Origin: Bacillota bacterium
GTDB taxonomy: Bacteria > Bacillota > Sulfobacillia > RBS10-35 > JAJYVN01
DNA length: 33,542 nt
Assembly: GCA_021797775.1 (NCBI GenBank)
Contig: JAJZZC010000029.1
Location: 1-33,542, forward strand
Reading direction: 5' to 3'
The notes beneath the pieces were generated by a model that saw only the letters and a list, made by a program, of their open reading frames with translations, had not been told where the DNA came from and ran no database searches. The position numbers and the translations under genes are program-made. Below, piece after piece: positions 1,719 to 4,526 of the stretch (its first letter is position 1; every line of letters starts with the position of its first letter).

Positions 1719-2777
1719 TCCCAGGCGTGGGCTTCCCGCGCTGCACTCGGTGCCTGCGTCGGACCCAGTCGGCCACCCGCTGGGGTTTTCGGCGGCGACT
1801 CGCCTTCGGGCGACCGGCCGGCCCTGAGCCATTGGGAGAGAAGAAAGGCCAGCAGGGGGAGGCACGGGCGGGGCTGGCGGCTTTCGACCGCAACAGGGCG
1901 CAGCGGCAAGGCCATGGGCTCACGCGGCCTGAGCATCTGTTCCCCTGAGGGGGGCGAACGGAGGGGCCTGGACATTCCTCAGGCCGGCCCGTTTCGCCCG
2001 CGCGCGCTGACCCGGGGAGCCTGGGCAGCCCACCTGGACCCAGGCATGGGCCGCACGAGTTGCGCGAGGCGCTCGGCGCGTTGCCGGCACCCGCGGGCGC
2101 CGCCGCGCTCGCATCCACGCCCAGCCCGCCCCCGTGGGACCATCTCGGGCGTCCGGCAGCCGGGCGCGTGGCCGGTGTGGCGGTGAGCGATCCCGCCGCG
2201 GGGGACATCCAGGCCCAGACGGCCAGCCGCGGTGGTCCCGCCACCCGCCAGGCGGGCGCGTCACGTGTTGCCGTACATCAGCGTATGGTGATACAGTGAT
2301 GGCAGGTGTCCCGCCAGGCGGTCGGTCAAGGGCCGCCGACCTTGTCCGGCTCCTGAGTCACGAGACCCCGCTGTGGATGTGGGCGCAGCGTGTGTGCGCG
2401 GGTGGGCCTCTTTGTTTACGAGCCAGCCGGCGGGCACTGGTGTGGGTTCAAGGGCGCGGGGCGGGCTGCCTGGGCGTCCACCGCGCTGCTCCGGGTCAGA
2501 GCAGCCCCGCGCGCCGACCGGCGCCCCGCGCGCGAGCGCCAGCAGTGCCCAGCGGCCCGTCTCCCAGGGGGGCGGCGCGGGCGCAGAGCCAGGGCAGGTC
2601 GCATAGGGGCGGCTGGAACAGGCGCCGGACTTGGCCAAGGCGGGACAGGCGCTGGCCCCCGTGCCGCTGGGTCCCGGCGGTCGCCATCCTTACCGCCCCC
2701 TGGTAGTGACTGGAGGCTATGCACGGGGCCTCGACGGCAGCGGTTCATCCTAGGATCAGGAAGTGCGCAGGGCAGCA
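1719..2777. other. Intergenic stretch without a convincing gene
   Basis: About 1.06 kb with no ORF I can support. The only coding-like passage is on the plus strand at roughly 2057-2225 (ELREALGALPAPAG, then AGRVAGVAVSDPAAGDIQ), which has genome-like third-position G+C but no recognisable family and no ribosome site. A relatively AT-rich patch lies near 2265-2305. The region probably contains gene debris. Confidence 0.4.
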
Positions 2778-3131
2778 CTAGCCAGGCGCCGCTGGCTGGC
2801 CGGCGGTCGCCGCGAGCATGAAGCGCAGGTGCTCGGCGTCGGTTTCGGCCTGGTAGTGGGCGAGGAGAAGGTCGCGCTGGGCCGCTCGGTGTGCCGCGCG
2901 TTCGCGCCGCAGCAGGCCGACCGAGAGCCCTAGACCGAGCCCCAAGCCCACGGTGAGAAGCGATGGGAACGGGTGTACCGACGAACCGCCCGACGCGCCC
3001 GGCGCCGCCAGAGGCGTAAAGAGGGCCTCGCGGAGCACCACGCCAAGCAGCACCGCCAACGCGAGGAAGCCGGCAAAACGCTCGCCGGCACGGGGCGGCA
3101 GCAACGCGACCGTTCCCCTTCTCATAGTCAT
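2778..3131 (-). CDS. Small two-helix membrane protein, unknown function
   Basis: Predicted product of 117 residues. One hydrophobic segment lies at about residues 19-43 (FAGFLALAVLLGVVLREALF) and a second at about 60-75 (glycine/leucine-rich), followed by a charged amphipathic tail rich in Arg, His and Glu (RRERAAHRAAQRDLLLAHYQ). This looks like a small integral membrane protein with a cytoplasmic helical tail; no family was recognised. The ATG overlaps the TGA of the TnpB relic (ATGA, 3128-3131), and a second ATG follows two codons later. There is no good Shine-Dalgarno sequence, so translation may be coupled to or reset from the relic. A good promoter lies about 260 bases upstream (3393-3421). 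The ORF could be the downstream half of a membrane gene split by the IS605 insertion. Confidence 0.45.
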   Translation of the reverse strand: MTMRRGTVALLPPRAGERFAGFLALAVLLGVVLREALFTPLAAPGASGGSSVHPFPSLLTVGLGLGLGLSVGLLRRERAAHRAAQRDLLLAHYQAETDAEHLRFMLAATAGQPAAPG

Positions 3132-3300
3132 TTGTTTCCAACCGCCGCAGCGGCCGGTTTCCGACTCGAAGGTACCTGCTTCACAGCGACCGGTTTCACC
3201 AGGCCGTTCTCCTGGCCAGAGCCTCCCGCTCCACAGGCGTTTACCGTCTCCGGGGAACTCCCGGCGACAAAGATCCGCAAGGATCTGGCGTCTACGCTCT
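3128..3300 (-). pseudogene. tnpB: C-terminal relic of IS200/IS605-family TnpB (OrfB)
   Basis: The minus-strand frame ending at 3128 reads FVAGSSPETVNACGAGGSGQ, then NGLVKPVAVKQVPSSRKPAA and a stop. The 'SSPET.NACG..GSG' step and the 'VK...VKQ.PSS' tail are characteristic of the extreme C-terminus of many IS200/IS605 OrfB/TnpB proteins, after the last zinc-finger and RuvC residues. Everything N-terminal to about residue 60 of this fragment is absent, so no RuvC catalytic residues remain. In intact elements this DNA also encodes the scaffold of the omega (reRNA) guide RNA. Recognition is by memory of the family's tail pattern, not by alignment. Confidence 0.6.
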
Positions 3301-3392
3301 TACGTGCCGGACGCTTCTTCCCGACACAGCCGCCAAAGCGTAGGTATTTCAAGCAGCGGTGGCCGGCTTGGTTTTCGCCGACTACTGGAGAT

Positions 3393-3421
3393 ACTATAGC
3401 ACAAGAGTGGACAGAAGGCAA
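3393..3421 (-). promoter_or_regulatory. Sigma-A-type promoter reading into the TnpB relic
   Basis: On the minus strand a -35 box TTGCCT (3421-3416) and a -10 box TATAGT (3398-3393) are separated by exactly 17 bases. This is the best promoter match in the window: 4/6 and 5/6 to the sigma-70/sigma-A consensus, in an otherwise very G+C-rich background. Transcription would start near 3386, pass through the TnpB relic as an untranslated leader of about 255 bases and enter the small membrane ORF ending at 2778. Confidence 0.55.
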
Positions 3422-3957
3422 CCTTTACGGTAGCAGTTGGGAACCCCCAGGGCCAGGGCCAGGGCCATGAGCCCCAAGGGCCAGTCGGCCTGGATGCTCG
3501 CGCTGGCGGCCATGACGGCGGCCGCCAGGACAAAGGCCACGCGCCCCGCCGGCCCGGGGGGCCGCGCGCGGGGTGCGGACCACCAGAGCGTCAGCGCCGC
3601 GGTCACGGTGAACGCCGCCCAAGCAGGCCGGGGTGCGCCGCCCGCGCGCAGGACGAGGGCCACGCAGAGCGCTGCCGCCAAGGCAGCCGCGCTCCCGACG
3701 CGGCCCGTCACCTGCCGCCAGATGCGGTGCGCGCGTAACGGTGCTGCGGGCGCACCGGACCGCGACCCACGCGTTGCCGGTCGATCGACCGATGGCGTCG
3801 GAGCCGCCTCCACCACGACCCTGCGCGGTGCCCCGCCGGCCGGGCCACGGCCGCCGCGTGACGGGGCCGAACAGGCCGGGCTCTCCGGTCGCGGCATGGC
3901 GGCCCTGTTCGCTCTGCCGGCGCGCCGCCCGCGCCAGCGGCCCCCACATCCTACCAC
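3394..3957 (-). CDS. Hypothetical multi-pass membrane protein, possibly truncated at its C-terminus
   Basis: The open frame encodes up to 187 residues. The last hundred or so form four hydrophobic segments (for example VGSAAALAAALCVALVL, WAAFTVTAALTLWW, VAFVLAAAVMAASAS and LGLMALALALGV). The first 80 residues are Arg/Pro/Gly-rich and less convincing, so a later start such as GTG 3711 is possible. The final residues (NCYRKGCLLSTLVL) differ in composition from the rest and are read through the -35/-10 promoter of the neighbouring TnpB relic. That suggests the original C-terminus was replaced when the IS605-type element inserted. No family was recognised. Confidence 0.35.
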   Translation of the reverse strand: MVGCGGRWRGRRAGRANRAAMPRPESPACSAPSRGGRGPAGGAPRRVVVEAAPTPSVDRPATRGSRSGAPAAPLRAHRIWRQVTGRVGSAAALAAALCVALVLRAGGAPRPAWAAFTVTAALTLWWSAPRARPPGPAGRVAFVLAAAVMAASASIQADWPLGLMALALALGVPNCYRKGCLLSTLVL

Positions 3958-4526
3958 AGGGTACGCCCGCTGGCATGGTGGTCAGCGGGTGTCGGGGAAC
4001 GGGTGTTTAGCCGGCAGGGTGGGGGGGCGACCCCTGCATGACCGAAGAGCCGCGGCGCCAGCCCCCGGCTGCAGCCGTGGGGGTACGCCGCCTTGTCCAA
4101 ACAGGTGGGCTGTGGACCACTTCGCTTAGCAGCTCGCCAACCGAACGTAGCGGGTTGCGCCGGGAAGTCCTCTGGCGTGCAAAACGTTCGCGGCATCCAG
4201 CCTGGGCCTGGCGCGCCAGCCTGCGGGCTGGGGGGTGCGGATCCGCTCCTGCGGACGGTGCCTGCCGACATCCCTCCGCGCGGTGCGGGCGTTGCCGCCC
4301 GCCGCCCCCGAACGGGGGAGAGAGCGGAGCGTCGGCGATCGGCCGGGGTGGTGGCCGCGCGGCGCCAAACAACGCAGAAGGCCCGGGATGTTGTAGCGGC
4401 TCGTCCGCGAGCGCCCGAGAGAGCCTGCCGGAAACCGGCCGGGGATGCGGCGGGCCTCCGTGGACGGTGGGGGGGATAGACAGAGTGGGCGCCATCCTCC
4501 TCGTCAGCCCGTGGGGGGACCCAGGG
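3958..4526. other. Non-coding stretch with IS605-type structures
   Basis: No gene is supported here. The left part (3966-4083) carries three successive hairpins, described separately, that resemble the right end of an IS200/IS605 element. The rest (4084-4526) has coding-like snippets on the minus strand (such as NPLRSVGELLSEVVHSPPVW near 4110-4180) but no frame that stays convincing. Confidence 0.35.
3966..4083 (+). ncRNA. Candidate omega-RNA/right-end structure of an IS200/IS605 relic
   Basis: Three hairpins follow one another on the plus strand. The first has a 7-bp stem, CCCGCTG (3966-3972) with CAGCGGG (3983-3989). The second has a 6-bp stem, GCAGGG (4014-4019) with CCCTGC (4032-4037). 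The third spans 4062-4082, with CCCC+CGGC, loop TGCA, then GCCG, one unpaired T, and GGGG. The third matches the general form of the terminal hairpin at the right end of many IS200/IS605 and IS1341-type elements. No intact tnpB frame precedes it. It may be a fossil right end or a stand-alone guide-RNA-like transcript; no promoter was recognised for this strand. Confidence 0.35.

Follow-up and report, generated by a model that had tools for sequence, protein, structure and literature searches.

The 336-bp element and the gene it probably interrupts

On the minus strand of the window, which is the whole analysed stretch of 33,542 nucleotides, positions 3445 to 3110 form a single unit of 336 bp with the ends GGTTCCC...GGAACGG and GG at both ends, a complete non-autonomous element. 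The element starts with GGTTCCCAACTG and ends with GAAGGGGAACGG, and positions within it are numbered E 1-336, the window position being 3446 − E. A search of its own genome with the region gave 41 matches, almost all terminating at two common positions or at contig ends. The same boundaries, also defined by an empty and a filled site (L011 and L012), recur at 21 different left and 24 different right junctions, and the flanks there are unrelated. At least 24 insertions are present in this genome, with an identity of 98-100% where they are assembled in full. Six copies are assembled whole at this identity and most of the remaining ones break at contig ends within the element, as is expected of a collapsed repeat; the genome is a fragmented MAG of 407 contigs, 90% complete and with 6.7% contamination. 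The repeat structure and the high identity of the copies together show that the element is a recently amplified mobile element. A sequence-only reading of this DNA had listed a promoter, a TnpB remnant and a membrane ORF as separate features. The promoter, the TnpB tail and the overlapping ATG are instead parts of one non-autonomous mobile element, and the ORF is most likely one half of a split gene.

The minus-strand promoter described earlier, TTGCCT-17-TATAGT with TG before the −10 box, is present in the left end (3421-3393) and is the sole sigma-70-like site in 2700-4100, where shuffled sequences are expected to give 0.0 ± 0.1. The left ends of g5 elements hold a comparable sequence (TTGCCT or TTGACC ... 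CACAAT). The TnpB C-terminal coding tail was likewise confirmed, being placed at 3125-3268 on the minus strand with an in-frame TGA; over 3125-3307 the match to residues 345-404 of a full-length TnpB is 73% with this one TGA. The premature TGA of the g1 element is also found in the TnpB end on contig C68. The earlier view that the leader contains only TnpB tail held for part of it, but about half (E ~66-175) is not simple tail and contains a hairpin specific to miniature elements.

The membrane ORF (2778-3131) begins within the element, its ATG overlapping the end of the TnpB tail as had been noted, and the opening codons, with the ATG among them, are part of the right end common to the copies of the subfamily. 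The ORF without these element-derived codons (2778-3109, minus strand) is most likely the 3′ part of an interrupted membrane-protein gene, whose 5′ part, with an uncertain start codon, lies at 3446-3957 on the same strand. When the element is excised and one GG kept, the ORF above 3446 and the ORF below 3109 join in frame to give 289 aa from stop to stop. An in-frame join by itself has a chance of about 1 in 3, and matching codon-position GC adds support: third-position GC is high on both sides of the join (85 and 83%) and second-position GC is low in the 3′ half. Frame and composition thus form the basis for the view that a membrane-protein gene was most likely split by the insertion. For this protein, alone or rejoined, there was no Pfam match, and 12 further genomes of the order gave no convincing or intact homologue. 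Annotators should be cautious with small ORFs that start within such right ends, as these are junction products.

The element is short, non-coding and multi-copy, as MITEs are. Terminal inverted repeats and target duplication, which a strict definition of MITEs demands, are absent, the tips showing only a short GTTCCC/GGGAAC similarity. Searches of plasmids, phages and viral contigs with the element or with its hairpin A gave no match, and a contig scan with a short right-end pattern found relatives and chance matches too.

IS607 parentage and insertion sites

The TnpB tail had been attributed to an IS605-type element, an assignment that had to be revised, since the parent is an IS607-type transposon with a serine recombinase TnpA and a TnpB. 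In another genome (G002, contig C224) a 189-aa serine recombinase TnpA (PF00239, E 3e-16) lies immediately upstream of a 404-aa TnpB (PF01385, PF07282) that ends in the tail found in the element and has the same right end. This gene order, together with no match to the Y1 (HUH) transposase PF01797 in the element's own genome, places the family in IS607. Membership of IS200/IS605 was rejected on the same PF01797 result and on the GG target mode. TnpB genes with this tail and right end are present in other genera of the family, and the left ends have GG-n-CAACTG in common.

IS607 inserts into GG without duplication (PMC6188088), and all junctions of the element agree with this mode. A paralogous empty site in its own genome, GCGGAG-GG-TAGTATGAGG on C329, is matched by the filled site GCGGAG-[GG...GG]-TAGTATGAGG on C195, and comparison of empty and filled site (L011 vs L012) shows insertion into GG with duplication absent. 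It is near certain that the element is a miniature derivative of IS607, and, having no protein genes, it probably borrows transposase and nuclease from full-length relatives. Full-length copies are represented in its own genome by a left end and tnpA start at the ends of contigs C91 and C7, identical in protein to the G002 element, and by TnpB pieces on C133, C68, C394 and C156. A search of this fragmented MAG for a full-length tnpB with the same tail gave these pieces only, and no intact cognate TnpB or full-length copy is assembled there.

Two other repeats were observed. A second family of ~157 bp, ending CCTAGGATCAGGCAGTGCGGAGGGTAGTA, occurs in the window at ~2716-2780, in L011 at ~712-873 and in L012, L021, L040, L046 and L052. 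It supplies the paralogous empty site and is a recurrent target of the element, which enters at GAGGG|TA; the incomplete repeat in the window, ~330 bp from the element, is empty. A third repeat is a miniature element of ~124-128 bp with inverted ends CCTGATTTTCGCA/TGCGAGATTCAGG and a 5-bp duplication TTGAA; it sits nested in a copy of the 336-bp element (L014:1594-1721), is also found on C197 in L152, and has a related copy in the window at ~30461-30330 (minus strand).

The 5-mer before the element was scored with the leading G-run placed at the junction. It consists of A and G only at 19 of 21 sites in the element's own genome. For full-length elements and for elements of other subfamilies and genera the figure is 14 of 20. 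The background is 9.7% for GG sites in general and 20% for GGG sites. GAGGG and AGGGG are the commonest 5-mers, and that of the window copy is GGGGG (3444-3448, minus strand). The measured TAMs of IS607 TnpBs are AGGAG, GAGGG and GGG (GAGGG: PMC11061315), whereas TnpA alone shows only a (G)GG preference (PMC6188088). The left junction carries a motif that is TAM-like in a statistical, not a biochemical, sense. The purine-rich sites would fit selection by, or co-adaptation with, TnpB; they may also be a preference of the cognate TnpA, and the GGG part of the target is TnpA's own preference too (PMC6188088).

The guide-RNA scaffold and its relatives

The 159 nt at 3110-3268 (minus strand) constitute a guide-RNA (reRNA/omega-RNA) scaffold that stands at the right end, is continuous with the flank and is common to full-length TnpB elements. 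Its identity to the TnpB tails and right ends found in other genera is 80-94%, and the genome's own TnpB end on C68 matches it at 96%. Miniature elements of like build, with left end, hairpin A and the 159-nt scaffold, occur in at least four genera (its own, g1, and g2, g5 and g6). The miniature copies of all four genera keep the scaffold; in g6 elements the promoter is not clear. Hairpin A (E 103-154; 3292-3343, minus strand), predicted by RNAalifold and assessed by pair counts, has changes on both sides at three pairs and was seen only in miniature elements, not in TnpB-bearing ones. A terminal hairpin of the right end, CCGGCCGC....GCGGTTGG, lies at 3138-3157 on the minus strand, and the last 58 nt, which include it, gave a z of −2.95.

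Across 13 distinct sequences the predicted structure was paired in 96.2% of cells, and seven pairs had changes on both sides, which was matched by 6 of 500 shuffles. The covariation score was 0.200 vs 0.138 in shuffles (0/500), and slid versions reached at most 0.096. Relatedness can inflate shuffle tests, and weight was placed on the slid control and on the between-genera changes in hairpin A. The terminal hairpin was misaligned by MAFFT and left out of the covariation count.

At the gathering threshold no Rfam family matched anywhere in the window. RAGATH-18 (RF03064), which serves IS607 TnpBs as guide-RNA scaffold (PMC11061315), can be aligned full length (cmscan, model 1-71/71) at 3237-3173 on the minus strand with 19.0 bits, which is below its gathering score of 44.9 and amounts to resemblance, not membership. 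At the corresponding place in five relatives it scores 22.8-26.8 bits, relatives reach up to 30.5, and it is the sole Rfam family that recurs there. Transposase-2 (RF03015, gathering 42.7) gave no match in the window, which places the copy outside that family. A covariance model built from the 159-nt scaffold, termed R1, had hits in 40 of the 121 genomes from the class that were searched, and four remote R1 loci score Transposase-2 at 67-73 bits; the Transposase-2 loci found in this way lie at or within the 3′ ends of TnpB reading frames in distant genera. The layout of the element, with ~30 nt from the scaffold start, a 65-nt core and 63 nt from core to right end, fits the 37+73+64 of the sequenced ISFba1 reRNA (PMC11061315). 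From the RAGATH-18-like core, the R1 and Transposase-2 matches and the 63- versus 64-nt spacing it was concluded that the 3′ part, as judged by its sequence, is an IS607 guide-RNA scaffold that formally belongs to neither of the two Rfam families.

Three loci in other families of the class, L269 (G120), L272 (G019) and L275 (G105), have a nearly identical TnpB end and scaffold (167-196 bits with R1), which suggests either that the full-length element was transferred horizontally or that the bins are contaminated. At L083:199-274, some 1.2 kb away from a g6 copy, there is an Rfam tmRNA match of 43.7 bits (threshold 47), possibly a divergent or partial tmRNA gene.

The scaffolds of g6 miniature elements are 94-98% identical to g6 TnpB ends, yet compared with each other the miniature scaffolds of g1 and g6 agree at only 81-82%. 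The elements of g5, g2 and subfamily B of the own genome are more diverged, with scaffolds that show no near-identity to a resident TnpB. Internal support was weak in a tree of the scaffold region, and the near-identities of g1 and g6 alone were used. Subfamily B (L202 1440-1746, L203, L204, L205, L206, L152) has a diverged, Transposase-2-like core with a GUAAGACC loop, as in Transposase-2 RNAs and a second TnpB clade (G004 C364), and a hairpin A that is 96% identical to that of g6. Subfamilies A and B have the hairpin in common and differ in their cores, that of A being RAGATH-18-like. One B copy, L205, shows a short tandem expansion close to its right end. Any of three processes could explain this pattern: gene conversion involving full-length copies, repeated birth, or selection for a scaffold that suits the nuclease.

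A proposed orphan guide RNA and its alternatives

The preferred reading, to which a probability of roughly 60% is given, is that the element encodes an orphan guide RNA supplied in trans to TnpB. An orphan omega-RNA usable by a TnpB encoded elsewhere was one of two proposals of the sequence-only reading, and it agrees with the number of copies, with an RNA that is conserved and covaries, with the match of this RNA to IS607 TnpB guide-RNA families and with the TAM-like sites. TnpA of full-length copies would move the element between GG dinucleotides, and the left-end promoter would make an RNA ending in the scaffold and about 20 nt of host DNA as guide. In the window copy the predicted 20-nt guide would be the minus-strand bases 3109-3090, right after the right-end GG, as placed by the layout of IS607 reRNAs (PMC11061315, PMC10711439). 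Loaded with this RNA, a TnpB produced from another locus would cleave insertion-free alleles at a purine-rich TAM, and repair from the filled copy would keep or restore the element by homing. Against this reading stand the RAGATH-18 score below threshold, the unclear promoter of the g6 elements, TnpA's own preference for the GGG part of the target and the fact that no intact cognate TnpB is assembled in the genome; the TGA common to the g1 element and the C68 TnpB end may also mean that their similarity is mere recent descent. It is possible, if tentative, that the elements form an RNA-only selfish lineage, in which the promoter-hairpin cassette would persist by feeding guide RNAs to resident TnpBs while swapping or converting its scaffold to match.

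A rather unlikely alternative is that of a plain miniature transposon, an internal deletion of IS607 in which the 3′ part was kept only as right-end DNA for TnpA, its RNA being without function. IS607 can transpose with TnpA as its only protein, and TnpA binds extended segments of the element's ends (PMC6188088), so that the right end may have been kept as DNA; the copies of g5, g2 and subfamily B are diverged. Against this alternative, the 159 nt that were kept equal an reRNA in length, pairs in the RNA are maintained by compensatory changes, the miniature-only hairpin is conserved across four genera, the promoter is positioned to transcribe the scaffold, and the purine-rich sites exceed a bare GG/GGG preference.

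Less probable still, the copies would be dead relics of a past burst that once used TnpB, in a lineage now without active nuclease. The many fragments and the lack of an assembled intact cognate TnpB in the genome agree with this, but the 98-100% identity of the copies indicates recent amplification, and tnpA starts at contig ends, with protein identical to that of the G002 element, are expected of collapsed recent copies. The other proposal of the sequence-only reading was that the remnant might have been exapted as a leader, or as a regulator resembling a guide RNA, that controls the neighbouring membrane ORF. In its favour, a promoter and a structured RNA precede this ORF, the ATG of which overlaps the stop of TnpB. 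The proposal is now very improbable, as the unit with its promoter, scaffold and ATG is followed by unrelated DNA at some two dozen insertions, the ATG belongs to the invariant right end, and the ORF is most likely the 3′ half of a split gene that joins in frame across the element and whose product has no homologue in the order (12 other genomes).

If the orphan guide RNA is real, TnpB would be a shared public good, its nuclease exploited by protein-free elements for their own retention, in parallel to the use of transposase by non-autonomous transposons. Guide-directed homing in trans would become testable, as would the decay or persistence of TnpB genes beside such parasites and the way in which guide-RNA genes part from the nuclease they serve, which the origin of CRISPR RNAs must also have required.

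Miniature transposons and IS607 guide RNAs are known already, as reportedly are stand-alone IscB guide RNAs: Altae-Tran and colleagues are said to have described in 2021 stand-alone IscB omega-RNA loci in Ktedonobacter. Those loci similarly encode a guide RNA away from the nuclease, but with IscB and not TnpB, whereas the RNA here lies within a mobile element that has ends, a promoter and recent amplification. A literature search covering few subscription papers returned no report of a miniature IS607 element that had been amplified and carried both a promoter of its own and the entire TnpB scaffold. IS607 TnpB systems with RAGATH-18-derived reRNA (ISFba1 and others; PMC11061315) share with the element a serine-recombinase origin, a scaffold just within the right end, the layout of 5′ flank, core and 63/64-nt 3′ flank, a flank-derived guide and an AG-rich TAM (GAGGG). 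They differ in that the scaffold of the element stands without tnpA and tnpB and scores below the Rfam threshold; also, the parents' scaffold overlaps the 3′ coding end of TnpB, whereas the published reRNA lies outside coding sequence (PMC11061315). R1 picks up Transposase-2 RNAs (RF03015) next to TnpB genes or inside their 3′ ends in other genera of the class, and subfamily B has the loop of these RNAs, but the window element has a different internal loop. Prokaryotic MITEs, whose review mentions no IS607/TnpB case (PMC10969869), and PATEs are likewise short, non-coding, high in copy number and mobilised by the transposase of a full-length relative; unlike them, the element lacks long terminal inverted repeats and target duplication and carries a full nuclease guide scaffold.
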